Shown one piece after another: positions 2,877 to 41,609 of a stretch of 41,609 bases of DNA. How positions within the stretch are numbered: the stretch's first letter is position 1; every line of letters begins with the position of its first letter. This stretch comes from Burkholderiales bacterium (GTDB lineage: Bacteria > Pseudomonadota > Gammaproteobacteria > Burkholderiales > Casimicrobiaceae): positions 1-41,609 of the forward strand of contig JADLEZ010000447.1 in NCBI GenBank assembly GCA_020845855.1, given 5' to 3'. The notes under the pieces were generated by a model. That model was not told where the DNA came from, did no database searches, and was given only the letters and a program-made list of their open reading frames with translations. The position numbers and the translations under genes were made by a program.

Positions 2877-3065
2877 ATGGACACACGACTGCTCGAAATC
2901 CTGGCCTGCCCGATCTGCAAGGGTCCCGTCGTCCATCGTCGCGATGCGCAGGTGCTGGTCTGCCGCGCCGATCGTCTGGCCTTCCCGATCCGCGACGGCA
3001 TCCCCGTGATGATCGAGGAGGAGGCGCGCCAGCTCGCCGCGGACGACCCGCTGCTGGAGCGCTGA
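2877..3065 (+). CDS. ycaR: Trm112-family (YcaR/UPF0434) small zinc-ribbon protein
   Basis: A 62-residue protein with the family signature LLEILACPICKG, a further cysteine in LVCRAD, and the closing AFPIRDGIPVM. Trm112 proteins are activating partners of methyltransferases in archaea and eukaryotes; the bacterial role is less certain. Only three cysteines are visible, so zinc binding may be incomplete, as in many bacterial members. It starts three bases after lpxK and ends six bases before kdsB, the conserved lpxK-ycaR-kdsB order. Confidence 0.9.
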   Translation: MDTRLLEILACPICKGPVVHRRDAQVLVCRADRLAFPIRDGIPVMIEEEARQLAADDPLLER

Positions 3066-3071
3066 GTTACC

Positions 3072-3854
3072 GTGTTCCGGGTCGTGATCCCTGCGCGCTA
3101 CGCCTCGTCGCGGTTCCCGGGCAAGCCGCTGGTCGAGCTCGCGGGCCGGCCGATGCTGCACTGGGTGCACGACAACGCGCGTCGCAGCGGCGCGAGCGAA
3201 GTGCTCGTGGCCACCGACGATGTGCGCATCGCCGACGCCGCGCGCGGCTTCGGCGCTGCCGTGGTCATGACCGCGGCTACGCACGCCTCCGGCACCGACC
3301 GCATCGCCGAGGCGGCTACGCGCGCCGGCTGGGAGAGCGGCGACATCGTCGTCAATCTGCAGGGCGACGAACCGCTGCTGCCGCCGCGCCTGCTGCGCCA
3401 GGTGGCGGAGCTGCTCGCGCGCCACGAGCGCGCCGATCTCGCGACCCTCGCCGTGCCGGTGACTTCGGTCGAGGAATACCTCGACCCGAACGCCGTCAAG
3501 GTGGTCGCCGACGCCGAAGGCCGCGCGCTGTATTTCAGCCGCGCGCCGATCCCCTGGCACCGCGACGGTGCTGTGCCCGGCGCACCGCCGAGCTTCGCGG
3601 GCGCGCGCCGCCACGTCGGTCTCTACGCCTACCGCGTCGGTGCACTGCGCCGGCTGGCGGCGCTGCCGGTCGCGGCGCTCGAGGAGGCCGAGAAGCTCGA
3701 GCAGCTGCGCGCGCTCGCCAACGGCTTCGAGATCCGCATCGCCGATGCGCTCGAGCGACCCGGCCAGGACATCAACACGCCGGCCGATCTGCAGCGCGCG
3801 GCGGCGCAGCTGCACGCGCGCGGCGGCGCGGCCGCCGCCGGGGCCGCGGACTGA
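3072..3854 (+). CDS. kdsB: 3-deoxy-manno-octulosonate cytidylyltransferase (CMP-KDO synthetase)
   Basis: Cytoplasmic enzyme that activates KDO with CTP to CMP-KDO for LPS inner-core synthesis. The 260-residue protein shows the nucleotide-binding start IPARYASSRFPGKPL, then ASGTDRIAEA, VNLQGDEPLLP, YFSRAPIPWHRD and a C-terminal EEAEKLEQLRALANG helix, all characteristic of KdsB. Start is GTG 3072. Its TGA stop overlaps the ATG of the following phosphatase gene by one base (TGATG), so the two were translationally coupled before the prophage split the second gene. Confidence 0.95.
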   Translation: MFRVVIPARYASSRFPGKPLVELAGRPMLHWVHDNARRSGASEVLVATDDVRIADAARGFGAAVVMTAATHASGTDRIAEAATRAGWESGDIVVNLQGDEPLLPPRLLRQVAELLARHERADLATLAVPVTSVEEYLDPNAVKVVADAEGRALYFSRAPIPWHRDGAVPGAPPSFAGARRHVGLYAYRVGALRRLAALPVAALEEAEKLEQLRALANGFEIRIADALERPGQDINTPADLQRAAAQLHARGGAAAAGAAD

Positions 3855-3881
3855 TGCGGATCCTGTTCGTCTGCTTGGGAA
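3854..3881. repeat. attL core (28-bp direct repeat)
   Basis: Identical for 28 bases to 41425-41452 (begins ATGCGGATCCTGTTCGTC). The flanking bases differ on both sides (G versus T before, G versus A after), so 28 bp is the full identity. It corresponds to codons 1-9 plus one base of the LMW-PTP gene. The crossover must lie within it. Confidence 0.9.
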
Positions 3882-3921: not shown

Positions 3922-3940
3922 GTCACTATCCATTCACTAT
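3922..3940 (+). promoter_or_regulatory. Candidate integrase arm-type sites near attL
   Basis: Two tandem near-copies, GTCACTAT (3922-3929) and TTCACTAT (3933-3940), lie 11 bp apart between the attL core and the integrase gene. The same TTCACTAT occurs near attR at 41317-41324. Lambda-type integrases bind short direct arm repeats on both phage arms. The motif is only eight bases, so this is a suggestion based on position and recurrence. Confidence 0.35.
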
Positions 3941-3953
3941 TCGATCGATCGCG

Positions 3954-5054
3954 CTACCGGGGCTTGATCGTCACCCGGACGAATTCCGCCCCTCGGTTGT
4001 TGCGATAGAGCAGGGTGGTCTCCGGGTCAGCGTGTCCCAGGAGCTGCTGCGTGTCGACGTTGCCCTGGGCGCCGTAGAGGCGCTCAGCGAGACTCCGGAT
4101 CTCGTGGAAGGTGGGAGGTGTCTTCTCGCCCCAATCGAGCCCCAGGGCCGCCAGGGCGCCGGAGAAGCGCCGGGAGACGGTGTCCTTCCAGATGGGGCTC
4201 CCGACGGGGCTGTTGCCGTAGGGGGCGGTCTGGTGGATCAGGTAGCGCGAGAGCACCCCGGTGCGCCGGCACTGCTCGTAGACGTCCCGCAGACTCATCC
4301 CGAAGGCGTCGAGGCGCAGCTCGAGCGGGATCTCCAGCTTCGCACCGGTCTTGCGCTGCGTCAGGCGCCAGGCGTCGTCCCGGAATTCGGCAACCTGGGC
4401 GAGCGCGATGTCCTCCCGGCGCTGCCCGGTGAGCAGCGCCAGGGCGATGGCATTGCGCAGCCAGACTGTCTCGCAGGACTCGTAGACCTGCCGAAGCACC
4501 GTCAGGGTGAGGCGGGCGCGCTTCACGACCACCCGGCCGGCTCGGACGTCCCGGACCGGGTTCTCGTCCAGCCAGCCGGGCACGATCGCGGCCCGGCTGA
4601 ACTCTTTCAGGAACGACCGCCATGCCTGCGCCAAGCGCGGCGTGCCCGCCAGCGCTTTCAGTGCTGCGTCGACCGTCAGGGGCGTTATGCTGCGGATGGG
4701 TGCGCGCTCGCCGAAGGTCTGGAGAGTGCGCCCAAGGAGGCTCTTGTACGACTTCAGGGTGTTGGCCGCCAGGGGCGGGTCGCGGGCCTTGAGATCCTGC
4801 CAGAACCGCTCTCCCCAGGCGCCGACCGTGCGCTCCTGGTTCCCCGTGAGGCGGTCGACAAGTCGAGGCTGGTCGAGCTGCTTGGCGAGCCAGAGGTTCG
4901 CCTCGATCGCTTGCCGAAAGGCGTCCTCCTTCGCGATGCGGCCAAGCCCGATCTCCTCGCGCGTGCGTGGATCCCTCCATGTGAAATAGCCGCCGCGGCA
5001 GTAGAGGTTTGCGGGCCAGCCGCGCCTGGAGAGGCTACGGCGCCGGGGTGTCAC
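3954..5054 (-). CDS. int: Site-specific tyrosine recombinase (lambda-type integrase)
   Basis: Catalyses integration and, with Xis, excision at the 28-bp core. The 366-residue protein has an N-terminal arm-binding type segment (about 1-65), a core-binding SAM-like region (about 75-170) and a catalytic domain. Visible catalytic residues: R212 in TGQRRED, K235 in QRKTGAK, H317 and R320 in FHEIRS, H341 in LLGHAD and nucleophile Y350 in LLYRNNRG. The end of the protein resembles lambda Int (HELRSL, LLGHK, YRDDRG). GTG start at 5054 overlaps xis by 20 bases. It is read toward attL and is the last gene of the leftward early operon. Confidence 0.93.
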   Translation of the reverse strand: MTPRRRSLSRRGWPANLYCRGGYFTWRDPRTREEIGLGRIAKEDAFRQAIEANLWLAKQLDQPRLVDRLTGNQERTVGAWGERFWQDLKARDPPLAANTLKSYKSLLGRTLQTFGERAPIRSITPLTVDAALKALAGTPRLAQAWRSFLKEFSRAAIVPGWLDENPVRDVRAGRVVVKRARLTLTVLRQVYESCETVWLRNAIALALLTGQRREDIALAQVAEFRDDAWRLTQRKTGAKLEIPLELRLDAFGMSLRDVYEQCRRTGVLSRYLIHQTAPYGNSPVGSPIWKDTVSRRFSGALAALGLDWGEKTPPTFHEIRSLAERLYGAQGNVDTQQLLGHADPETTLLYRNNRGAEFVRVTIKPR

Positions 5055-10110: not shown

Positions 10111-10539
10111 TCAACCTGCGCGTCGCTGAGCGCTGCGGGGCTTCGACACGTCGGCCTCGACGGCAGCGCTTTTACTCTCCGCCTCGATCCTCTCCAACTC
10201 GCGCAGCAGCACCGACGCGATCGCCAGTTGCTGGCCCGGCGTGAGCCGGTCGTAGCGGGCGCGGTCGAAGGGGAAGGGCCAGGATATTCGCGATCTCTCC
10301 GTGGCGAGACGCCACGCCGGGCTGACTATCGCCGGTTCCAGATTCAACGCGCCGGCGAGGGCCACCGCGCGCCCCGCCGGCACGCGCATTCGTCCGTGCG
10401 CCCACTGCCACACTTGGCCCTGCGTGACTCCAACCAAGTCCGCTACGGCCTCCTGAGTGATCGCCGGGTCTCCAAGTGCTCTCCTGATCGCGGCCGCGGC
10501 TGCAAGCTCTTCGGCGGTCAGGGCGCGTTTCTTGCTCAT
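10111..10539 (-). CDS. Prophage repressor (CI-like), HTH protein without S24 peptidase domain
   Basis: 142 residues. The HTH (about 28-50) is ITQEAVADLVGVTQGQVWQWAHGR; a second helical part (FDRARYDRLTPGQQLAIASVLLRELERIEAE, about 91-121) may dimerise. It is divergent from the Cro-like gene across three operator copies, and its recognition helix (VTQGQVWQWAHGR) is nearly the same as Cro (VTQGMVWQWANGR). The protein ends without the Ala-Gly cleavage site and Ser/Lys dyad of CI/LexA peptidases, so RecA-stimulated autocleavage is not expected. ATG 10539 is the only convenient start; the first operator abuts it, pointing to autoregulation. Confidence 0.8.
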   Translation of the reverse strand: MSKKRALTAEELAAAAAIRRALGDPAITQEAVADLVGVTQGQVWQWAHGRMRVPAGRAVALAGALNLEPAIVSPAWRLATERSRISWPFPFDRARYDRLTPGQQLAIASVLLRELERIEAESKSAAVEADVSKPRSAQRRAG

Positions 10540-12971: not shown

Positions 12972-13493
12972 ATGAAAAGCTATTCCGCAGCGAGCGATGA
13001 CGTGATCCGCACGATCCAGCGTGTGCGCGAGCAGCACCACAGCCCCGATCTCGACGGCGTCACGATCGCCGCGCTGTTCATTTTCGACCTGGAAGCGACC
13101 GAGCCCGTGCTCACGCACCAGGGCTATCCGGCGCAGGCGGTCACGCGCATCACGCCGACGCGCGACAGAGCGCTGGGCATCGCCGACGCGGTCGTCGTGA
13201 TCGACCGCAGCAACTGGCTCACGCTCTCGGCGAGGAAGCGTGACGCACTGATCGATCACGAGCTGATGCACCTCGAGCGCGTGCTCGACGAGGAGACCGA
13301 GCTATCGCTGACGGACGCCGTGGATCGGCCGAAGCTGCGCATCCGGCGGCATGATCGACGACTCGGCTGGTTCGACGCGGTCGCGCAGCGGCACGGGGAT
13401 GCCTCGCCAGAGGTTCGCCAGGCGAAGCAGATGATCGCCGAGACCGGCCAACTGTATTTCGATTTTGAGCGCCCGGAGGCTCGGGCTGCATGA
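12972..13493 (+). CDS. Putative phage metallopeptidase (HELMH zinc motif)
   Basis: 173 residues with ALIDHELMHLERV around 92-104, a zincin-type HExxH (H96, E97, H100), preceded by AVVVIDRSNW and followed by an RRHDRRLGWFDAVAQRHG stretch that may hold the third ligand. This matches the putative phage metallopeptidase family (PhageMetallopep type) found in early/replication regions of temperate phages; substrate unknown. ATG 12972 has AGGTG upstream. Its stop overlaps the next start (ATGA), beginning a run of four such couplings. Confidence 0.78.
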   Translation: MKSYSAASDDVIRTIQRVREQHHSPDLDGVTIAALFIFDLEATEPVLTHQGYPAQAVTRITPTRDRALGIADAVVVIDRSNWLTLSARKRDALIDHELMHLERVLDEETELSLTDAVDRPKLRIRRHDRRLGWFDAVAQRHGDASPEVRQAKQMIAETGQLYFDFERPEARAA

Positions 13494-39975: not shown

Positions 39976-40176
39976 ATGGACGGCGATAAGCGACCGCCCT
40001 TCGGCGGCCTAACCGAGGGCGAAATCGAGGCGCTTGTCGAGCGCGTGACGAAGCACGTGATCGAGAACTTCTACAGAGAAGTCGGGAGAAACGTGGTGGG
40101 AAAATTCCTCTGGCTCGTCGGTGTTGTGACGGTGGGCGTTGCGACCTATCTCGGCCTCACCGGCAAGGGTCCGTGA
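39976..40176 (+). CDS. Small membrane protein of the lysis cassette (holin-like)
   Basis: 66 residues from ATG 39976; the track start is upstream in the fibre gene. TEGEIEALVERVTKHVIENFYREVGRNVVGK is amphipathic, then one membrane helix FLWLVGVVTVGVATYLGL (about 44-61). Its TGA overlaps the endolysin ATG. One-TM proteins like this occur as pinholins or holin partners. Another two-TM candidate holin lies after the endolysin, so the roles cannot be split from sequence. Confidence 0.6.
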   Translation: MDGDKRPPFGGLTEGEIEALVERVTKHVIENFYREVGRNVVGKFLWLVGVVTVGVATYLGLTGKGP

Positions 40177-40553
40177 TGGCGCTCTCGGCTCGCTCGGAAC
40201 GTAACCTGCGCGGCGTGCATCCGGATCTCGTGAAGGTCGTGCGCCTGGCGGCTTCGATCTCAACGCAACCCTTCGAAGTTATCGAAGGGTTGCGCACGGC
40301 GGCGCGCCAGGCAGAGCTCGTGAAGGTTGGCGCCTCGCGCACGCTGAAGTCGCGGCACCTGACCGGGCACGCCGTCGACCTCGCGGCGCTGGTATCCGGC
40401 ACGATCCGCTGGGACTGGCCGCTGTACCGACGGCTCGCTATGGAGGTCAAGGCCGCAGCGCGTGATCTCGGCGTGGCCATCGTCTGGGGCGGTGACTGGA
40501 AGACGTTCAGGGACGGCCCGCACTTCGAGCTCGCGCGGAGTGACTACCCATGA
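40176..40553 (+). CDS. Endolysin, M15-family L-alanyl-D-glutamate peptidase
   Basis: 125 residues from ATG 40176. Zinc ligands of the VanY/M15 fold are visible: H61 and D68 in SRHLTGHAVDLA and H116 in DGPHFEL, with VIEGLRTAARQAELVKVGAS preceding, as in T5-type endolysins (H66/D73/H133 pattern). It cuts the stem peptide of peptidoglycan at lysis. No signal or SAR helix, so it depends on a holin for release. It lies between two holin-like genes. Confidence 0.88.
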   Translation: MALSARSERNLRGVHPDLVKVVRLAASISTQPFEVIEGLRTAARQAELVKVGASRTLKSRHLTGHAVDLAALVSGTIRWDWPLYRRLAMEVKAAARDLGVAIVWGGDWKTFRDGPHFELARSDYP

Positions 40554-40837
40554 GCATGAAATCGGCCGCGAACGCCACCGCCGACCGCTTCCCTGTTCTG
40601 ATCCAGCGGTCCACCTCCCAGCTCGCGGTGCGCCTGGTCGTGCTGGCGCAGGGCCTCTGGAACATCCTGGCGATCCTCTTCACCCAGAGCGAGGGCGCGG
40701 TGCGCTTCGCGCTCGTCGTAAACACGTGCTTCGCCGCGGTCGTCTTCCTGCAGGTTGAGCTGCGCAAGCTCCTCGACCTGTTCGGGCCCGATCTGAAGGC
40801 GGCGGCCGGACAGCCGCCGGCCGCCGGCACGCAGTGA
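40550..40837 (+). CDS. Holin-like protein with two membrane segments
   Basis: 95 residues from ATG 40550. Two predicted membrane helices: LAVRLVVLAQGLWNILAILF (about 25-44) and VRFALVVNTCFAAVVFLQVEL (about 51-71), with a polar N-terminus and a short charged tail (RKLLDLFGPDLKAAAG). Placed between endolysin and spanin, coupled to both by overlaps, it fits a class II-type holin that opens the inner membrane for the endolysin. Confidence 0.68.
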   Translation: MSMKSAANATADRFPVLIQRSTSQLAVRLVVLAQGLWNILAILFTQSEGAVRFALVVNTCFAAVVFLQVELRKLLDLFGPDLKAAAGQPPAAGTQ

Positions 40838-41313
40838 TCCCGCTCTGGTGGCGGCTTGGCGCCATCGCGGCCGCGTTGCTGGTCGGCCTCGCGGTGGGCG
40901 GCACCGTGGCGTGGAAGTGGCAGGCATCGCGCGTAAGCCACGCAGAAGCCCGTATGGCGGAGCTCCAGCGGGGCGCGGAGACAGCCGCTCGGCAAGAGCT
41001 GCAGCGGCAGGCCGAGCGCGAGGCTCGCGCCAGGGCCAACAATGACCGGTTGCGAAAGGAGAGGGACGATGCGATCCGGGATGCTGATGCTCGCGGCGCT
41101 GATCTGGCTGCCCGGCTGCTCGACGCCCGGGCGGACGCTGCCCGTAGTCGTGCGCTGTCCGAAGCCGGCGATCGACAGCGAGCTCTTGATGCCGCCGACT
41201 TCGCCCGCCGCGAGGGCGAGATTGCTCGAGCTGTTGCCGCCTACGACGCCGCCTGCCAGCGCGACGCGGCCCAGCTCATCGCCCTGATCGGGCAGCTCGA
41301 GCCGCAGCTCTGA
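40834..41313 (+). CDS. Inner-membrane spanin (Rz-like)
   Basis: 159 residues starting at GTG 40834. One N-terminal membrane anchor (LGAIAAALLVGLAVGGTVAWKW, about 8-29), then a long periplasmic coiled coil (SHAEARMAELQRGAETAARQELQRQAEREARARANNDRLRKERDDAIRDADARGADLAARL...) to the C-terminus. This is the i-spanin layout. The o-spanin is encoded inside it in another frame. Together they fuse inner and outer membranes in the final step of lysis. Confidence 0.85.
   Translation: MIPLWWRLGAIAAALLVGLAVGGTVAWKWQASRVSHAEARMAELQRGAETAARQELQRQAEREARARANNDRLRKERDDAIRDADARGADLAARLLDARADAARSRALSEAGDRQRALDAADFARREGEIARAVAAYDAACQRDAAQLIALIGQLEPQL
41069..41287 (+). CDS. Outer-membrane spanin lipoprotein (Rz1-like), embedded in Rz
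   Basis: 72 residues in the +1-shifted frame wholly inside the Rz-like gene, as in lambda. Lipoprotein signal MRSGMLMLAALIWLPGC with lipobox LPGC (cysteine at 17), then a short proline-rich periplasmic peptide (MPPTSPAARARLLELLPPTTPPAS). ATG 41069 follows AAGGAGAGGG closely; the track start at 41042 lacks a signal-like N-terminus. Confidence 0.85.
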   Translation: MRSGMLMLAALIWLPGCSTPGRTLPVVVRCPKPAIDSELLMPPTSPAARARLLELLPPTTPPASATRPSSSP

Positions 41314-41316
41314 CCG

Positions 41317-41324
41317 TTCACTAT
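41317..41324 (+). promoter_or_regulatory. Candidate integrase arm-type site near attR
   Basis: TTCACTAT, identical to the site at 3933-3940 in the other arm, four bases after the Rz stop and about 100 bp from the attR core. The 111-base gap 41314-41424 holds no gene; only this motif and the ribosome binding site before the phosphatase were noted there. Confidence 0.3.
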
Positions 41325-41414
41325 GCGTTGCTATGTGCCTGATTCCATTGCAACGTATCGCACCATTTCGGGGTATGTTTGCGCGGCGCAGAATAGACGT
41401 AACGCGCTGATCGT

Positions 41415-41420
41415 TAAGGG
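41415..41420 (+). promoter_or_regulatory. Phage-supplied ribosome binding site for the host phosphatase
   Basis: TAAGGG lies four bases before the ATG inside attR. This sequence is phage DNA and replaces the native coupling to kdsB. The spacing is short but usable. No convincing -35/-10 pair was found in the gap; TATGTT (41374-41379) is a possible -10 with a poorly spaced TTGCAA upstream. Confidence 0.45.
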
Positions 41421-41424
41421 AAAT

Positions 41425-41452
41425 ATGCGGATCCTGTTCGTCTGCTTGGGAA
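41425..41452. repeat. attR core (28-bp direct repeat)
   Basis: Second copy of the 28-bp core, perfectly matching 3854-3881. It supplies the start codon and codons 2-9 of the intact phosphatase gene on this side. Confidence 0.9.
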
Positions 41453-41609
41453 ATATCTGCCGTTCGCCGACCGCGCATGGCGTGTTCCGCGAAATCGCGC
41501 GGCGCGAGGCACCGGGCCTCGTCTCGCTCGTGGATTCCGCCGGCACCGCGGACTACCACGTCGGCGAGCCGCCGGATCCGCGGACCTGCCGCATCGCCGC
41601 GCAGCGCGG
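41425..41609 (+). CDS. Low-molecular-weight protein tyrosine phosphatase (3' end outside window)
   Basis: 61 codons present: MRILFVCLGNICRSPTAHGVFREIARREAPGLVSLVDSAGTADYHVGEPPDPRTC. The catalytic loop CLGNICRS (CxxxxxRS, C8 and R14) and the GEPPDPR region identify an LMW-PTP, a cytoplasmic enzyme that removes phosphate from tyrosine, often linked to exopolysaccharide control. Its start and first nine codons come from the att core, so the full protein is restored despite integration. Native partner kdsB is now 37.6 kb away, so expression depends on phage DNA upstream. Truncated by the window, not by mutation. Confidence 0.9.
   Translation, partial: MRILFVCLGNICRSPTAHGVFREIARREAPGLVSLVDSAGTADYHVGEPPDPRTCRIAAQR

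Follow-up and report, generated by a model that had tools for sequence, protein, structure and literature searches.

A temperate podovirus in the 5′ end of a kdsB-adjacent LMW-PTP gene, with phage attachment sites that appear to rebuild the start of the gene

A prophage interrupts an LMW-PTP gene next to kdsB

The window analyzed here is a whole contig of 41,609 nucleotides, whose left 3.85 kb hold a cluster of host envelope genes arranged as msbA, lpxK, trm112-like, kdsB. All four genes lie on the forward strand: a partial msbA-like ABC transporter gene (2–1795; Pfam ABC_membrane and ABC_tran), lpxK (1560–2873, the extent of the open reading frame as listed, with an unrefined start; Pfam LpxK, 2.3e-105), a gene for a Trm112-like protein (2877–3065; Pfam Trm112p, 1.4e-17), and kdsB (3072–3854; Pfam CTP_transf_3, 5.8e-56), which ends in a TGA at 3852–3854. 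Next to this cluster, on the reverse strand, is a lambda-type tyrosine integrase gene (3954–5054; phrog_7244) encoding both an N-terminal arm-binding domain (Arm-DNA-bind_1, PF09003, 6.5e-10) and a tyrosine recombinase domain (Phage_integrase, PF00589, 1.1e-16), and 37% identical to HK022 Int at the protein level. It is followed by recombination and replication genes, a repressor-like regulator (10111–10539, reverse strand; phrog_35, transcriptional repressor, 1.1e-07), and a long forward-strand late region with head-tail adaptor, tail, endolysin, and spanin genes. The endolysin is an M15 peptidase (40173–40553, forward; phrog_465, 1.8e-55; Pfam Peptidase_M15_4), and the final late-region gene encodes an Rz-like spanin (40834–41313, forward; phrog_2466, 6.6e-05). 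A short open reading frame in the early/replication region (12972–13493) weakly matched a transposase PHROG (phrog_513, 1.3e-10). Overall, the element is a podovirus prophage of ~37.6 kb with a lambda-type integrase, and it sits in the 5′ end of an LMW-PTP gene.

The two prophage ends are marked by an exact 28-bp repeat, ATGCGGATCCTGTTCGTCTGCTTGGGAA, found on the forward strand at 3854–3881 (attL) and 41425–41452 (attR), in both cases within LMW-PTP codons. At attL, the repeat contains the native phosphatase ATG (3854–3856), which shares one nucleotide with the kdsB TGA, along with the first phosphatase codons; the reading frame begins MRILFVCLG, enters phage DNA, and ends at 3967 as a 37-codon remnant. 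At attR, the phosphatase frame resumes from a phage-supplied start and remains open to the end of the contig (41425–41609, forward), with an LMWPc match over 61 residues (Pfam, E = 4e-15); since the contig ends inside the gene, the protein is readable only in its 5′ part. The separation of the phosphatase from kdsB in the lysogen, proposed in a first-pass annotation of this DNA, was thus borne out.

An unoccupied version of the same locus was identified in a Steroidobacteraceae metagenome-assembled genome (L049), which provided the best match to the window kdsB (80% identity). There, kdsB ends in CACTGATGCGC, with the same 1-nt TGATG overlap leading into an intact LMW-PTP gene of 156 amino acids, and we take this as the empty site. 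Excision from the window would bring back this kdsB–ptp junction, as the first-pass annotation had anticipated. The gene order in L049 is exbB-exbD-msbA-lpxK-kdsB-ptp, then a convergent rne; because ptp is last in the cluster and faces rne, integration would detach ptp alone. In pseudomonads, murB follows ptp; a polar effect on an essential gene further downstream was considered and rejected from the arrangement in the closest relative. We saw no Shine-Dalgarno sequence before the native phosphatase ATG, either in L049 or at attL, and a TGATG junction of this kind suggests that native translation of the phosphatase is coupled to that of kdsB.

The contig itself probably entered its genome bin as a contaminant: a second kdsB lies on another contig of the bin (C58), and the window kdsB is closest to Steroidobacteraceae rather than to the relatives of the bin, several of which have kdsB followed by an adenylate-kinase-like gene. 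Further LMW-PTP matches in the bin (C197 and C242) correspond to other genes and were excluded. Bin contamination and a contig that ends inside a gene would both fit a misjoin of a phage contig to host DNA. However, the repeat is exact at both junctions, the integrase gene lies beside attL, predicted integrase arm sites occur on both sides, the host gene order is that of the empty relative, and the target is also the one predicted by independent attPs (see below), so that an assembly artefact is hardly credible.

Predicted crossover in the P-loop codons and a leader made of attP DNA

The attP deduced from the window reads TCTGC-TTGGGAA-GCAGA, i.e., inverted flanks around 7 bp, which is the layout of a lambda-type overlap. 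From this anatomy, we infer a crossover at TTGGGAA, on the forward strand at 3875–3881 in attL and 41446–41452 in attR. The codon immediately upstream (41443–41445, forward) is that of the nucleophilic, catalytic cysteine of the LMW-PTP CX5R P-loop. With the crossover placed here, recombination would occur in the P-loop codons (Cys-Leu-Gly-Asn), directly after the cysteine codon, and the catalytic cysteine codon at attR would come from the phage side. Phage-derived DNA at attR hence probably extends beyond the ATG, up to the crossover.

Upstream of this ATG, the spanin-like gene stops at 41313, and the following 111 nt (41314–41424, forward) are phage DNA that aligns with the P arms of 13 other attPs. 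The heptamer TCACTAT occurs only four times in the window against 0.64 expected, and three of these copies flank the att sites: two lie 11 bp apart in the P′ arm, at 3923 and 3934 (3923–3940, forward), and one at 41318–41324 (forward), so that the core has predicted arm-type sites on either side. Because these three heptamers resemble lambda arm-type sites, we read 41314–41424 as the attP P arm; the leader is primarily recombination DNA. An IHF-like near-consensus, AATCAANNNNTTR, was present on the bottom strand in two relatives (L044 and L045) and is degenerate in the window. At its 3′ end, the leader carries a Shine-Dalgarno sequence, TAAGGG (41415–41420, forward), then AAAT and the ATG at 41425, i.e., a spacing of 4 nt, or 5 nt if counted from TAAGG. 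A phage-derived leader with TAAGGG ahead of the phosphatase ATG, as described in the first pass, is therefore what lies at attR.

Related attPs resemble the target gene on one side

We next evaluated whether this arrangement was shared by integrase relatives, gathered from viral contigs and one genome. Thirteen further distinct attPs were obtained whose integrase-adjacent core reads as the beginning of an LMW-PTP, e.g., RILFVCLG; two other candidates with the core motif, L217 and L222, encoded no LMW-PTP-like start and were left out. Leader identity was 32–64% (median 46%), with a ATATACAG-like block, TTGATTNNATTG, and ACGTTT-like repeats common to the window leader and the 13 P arms. At the DNA level, the leader gave only chance-level matches among known phages.

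All 14 attPs resemble the phosphatase gene mainly upstream of the crossover. Compared to LMW-PTP, attP-encoded residues had a mean BLOSUM62 score of 3.4 upstream and 0.14 downstream of the crossover across the 14 attPs, a difference (Wilcoxon p = 1.2e-4) partly conditioned by the choice of attPs through a cysteine-spanning motif. Neither upstream starts nor Shine-Dalgarno words played any part in this choice, which was based on the core motif. Within 7 codons upstream of the core, an in-frame start preceded any stop in 12 attPs (6.1 expected, p ~ 0.0009); in the two remaining frames, this was so for 2/14 and 1/14. Within 21 codons, all 14 had such a start (9.0 expected, p ~ 0.001), and six of the 14 carried a Shine-Dalgarno-like word ahead of it (0.56 expected, p ~ 5e-6), with all of these p values optimistic, and independence overstated in the start-codon test, because the 14 attPs are homologous.

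This pattern bears on another reading, i.e., that the homology is just what integrase binding needs and that the phosphatase start is kept incidentally. Lambda-type integrases usually have a core of ~20–28 bp, and their binding to the core is about symmetrical around the overlap. The length of the repeat found here is thus normal, and core-type inverted sites do account for part of the sequence. However, the likeness observed across attPs is one-sided, and neither in-frame starts at varied positions nor Shine-Dalgarno words are necessary for binding, which makes this reading very improbable.

Instead, we consider it highly probable that the locus is the attR junction left by a temperate podovirus, with a lambda-type integrase acting in the P-loop codons at the 5′ end of a kdsB-adjacent LMW-PTP gene. 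As the family comparison supports, the P-arm side of the phage attP retains a start and the coding sequence as far as the catalytic cysteine, together with a Shine-Dalgarno sequence in about half of the family, and with the start and N-terminal codons kept by the phage, the gene would survive integration.

Several relatives indicate how this targeting may vary. In L282, from another host, a kdsB-like C-terminal tail lies directly upstream of attL, which supports use of the same target there. The L282 integrase is much more distant (34% identity to the first sequence of the alignment used as query), with a kdsB-linked LMW-PTP start, GTTTGCCTGGGCAAT, and the LMW-PTP target may thus be used by several integrase lineages. 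The attP of L141 (identical to L153 and L157) has very similar arms and core-binding sites (GCTATGC and GCATCTG) around an overlap, TATCGGT, that is not of the xTGGGxA type, which suggests a target switch through a changed overlap. In L138, the match of the attP core to the phosphatase continues beyond the crossover (LGSICRSQIAAE) for longer than in any other attP, and this core is possibly longer or recently captured.

Genome searches around the empty-site relative yielded a single integrase match in 217 genomes of the L049 family, the same match in 396 genomes of its order, and none in 369 genomes of its class; no second attR was found across these three sets. One relative, L131 (contig G269:C15, 5.2 kb, from an L049-family genome), carries an integrase and an apparently unoccupied attP. 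The single LMW-PTP gene of that genome is intact and on a different contig, consistent with L131 being an excised or free phage binned with that genome.

Expression of the phosphatase in the lysogen

Beyond the change of leader, the first-pass annotation had placed the phosphatase under phage control or readthrough from the lysis genes, with lysogeny and excision acting as an active-lysogeny-like switch on LPS/exopolysaccharide signalling. A scan of positions 40800–41609 found no sigma-70-like promoter. No terminator-like site was detected in the same interval, including between the spanin gene and the phosphatase ATG, and readthrough from the lysis genes into the phosphatase is thus possible in the window. 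Yet in L131 the nearest genes, from mechanical calls of open reading frames, point away from the leader, so that such readthrough is not a general trait of the family.

With a cruder promoter score applied to the 14 leaders, the window leader fell below its shuffles and the family mean slightly above, although we did not count the family score, the leaders being homologous and overlapping the IHF-like block. A TTGATT/TTGAAT/TTGATC-17-TACGTT arrangement is common to the P arms of five relatives and could be taken for a promoter. This TTG-17-TACGTT block, however, lies over a region with IHF-like sequence and repeats, and L141, whose overlap differs, has it too; it may therefore serve recombination.

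Taken together, a regulatory switch on cell-envelope signalling can draw on the severed link to kdsB, the lack of a terminator-like site, and the promoter-like signals of the family. Against it stand a window leader without a recognizable promoter, a block that may be recombination DNA, and the gene orientation in L131; in addition, the phosphatase open reading frame is kept intact at attR with a Shine-Dalgarno sequence rather than silenced, and we found no evidence of regulated excision or of reversible excision outside induction. We consider such a switch unlikely, and the term active lysogeny, as normally used, does not apply. What persists from the first-pass proposal is the swap of the 5′ leader upon lysogeny, now extended to 13 related attPs, whereas phage control of transcription stays hypothetical, as no promoter of sigma-70 type in the window leader outscored the shuffles. 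The link to LPS/exopolysaccharide signalling is a conjecture from operon association.

Under the integration reading favored above, we expect the phosphatase in an uninfected cell to be translated by coupling to kdsB, through the TGATG junction without a Shine-Dalgarno sequence. In a lysogen, the phage ribosome site would instead allow translation independent of kdsB, and the gene would be detached from kdsB-operon transcription. With that transcription lost, its expression would probably rest on a weak or unrecognized promoter in or near the P arm. It is plausible that lysogeny alters the phosphatase level. The function under selection is most likely harmless integration rather than regulation of the phosphatase.

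A broader proposal can be derived from these observations: a widespread integrase clade would target the LMW-PTP P-loop, supply the cysteine and translation signals, and thereby set a lysogen-specific phosphatase level. We regard this as doubtful; if true, such a level could alter, e.g., the capsule or envelope, and hence superinfection. The integration reading favored above brings what seems to be a further target to a small group of elements, those that restore the 5′ end of the gene into which they insert. A simple sequence signature for separating gene-restoring from gene-breaking integration also follows from it, namely one-sided attP homology combined with an in-frame phage start. Finally, placing the crossover where the codons of an enzyme are most conserved may open many hosts to a single integrase.

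Comparison with known integration systems

The recombination machinery deduced here is close to that of lambda and HK022, with arm-binding and catalytic domains in the integrase, TCACTAT arm sites, and a putative 7-bp overlap between inverted core sites, the cleavage position being deduced from this layout. The attB sites of lambda and HK022 are elsewhere, and integration there is not known to rebuild a gene's start. The limited literature collection searched contained no report of a phage integrating into LMW-PTP, and LMW-PTP appears to be a previously undescribed integration target.

Gene restoration can be compared with that of the islands and prophages found in dusA (PMC4482086; PMC8409611), where a tyrosine recombinase likewise acts at the 5′ end of a coding gene and attR provides new 5′ coding sequence and restores the frame. 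In dusA, the replaced residues were reported as not being known functional ones (Farrugia 2015, PMC4482086), whereas here the target is an LMW-PTP gene, the crossover would fall in the catalytic P-loop, and the element would supply the catalytic cysteine codon. For the dusA element IMEVchUSA3, a new promoter was demonstrated by lacZ fusion, with reduced expression (PMC8409611). In the present leader, the sequence scan recovered no consensus promoter.

Integration of SXT/R391 ICEs in prfC is also at a 5′ end (PMC2791158), and the element is cited as the source of a new promoter and N terminus, with its expression signals (PMC8409611). In the window, the element similarly supplies an in-frame start and N terminus, the attR frame being open from the phage-side ATG. 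SXT/R391 elements are, however, conjugative and target prfC, while the element described here is a podovirus with a lambda-type integrase, an LMW-PTP target, and a clade of environmental phage relatives. Among phage regulatory switches of the active-lysogeny kind, e.g., phiSa3 in hlb (PMC6597384), excision restores the native gene structure, as it would here, but the target gene is inactivated in the lysogen, whereas here the phosphatase frame is retained. Overall, as judged from attP and attR sequences, restoration of the 5′ end appears to be a property of the integrase family, as it is for SXT in prfC and the dusA elements: the mechanism of gene-restoring integration was already known from these systems, and what would differ here is the target and a crossover in the catalytic loop.
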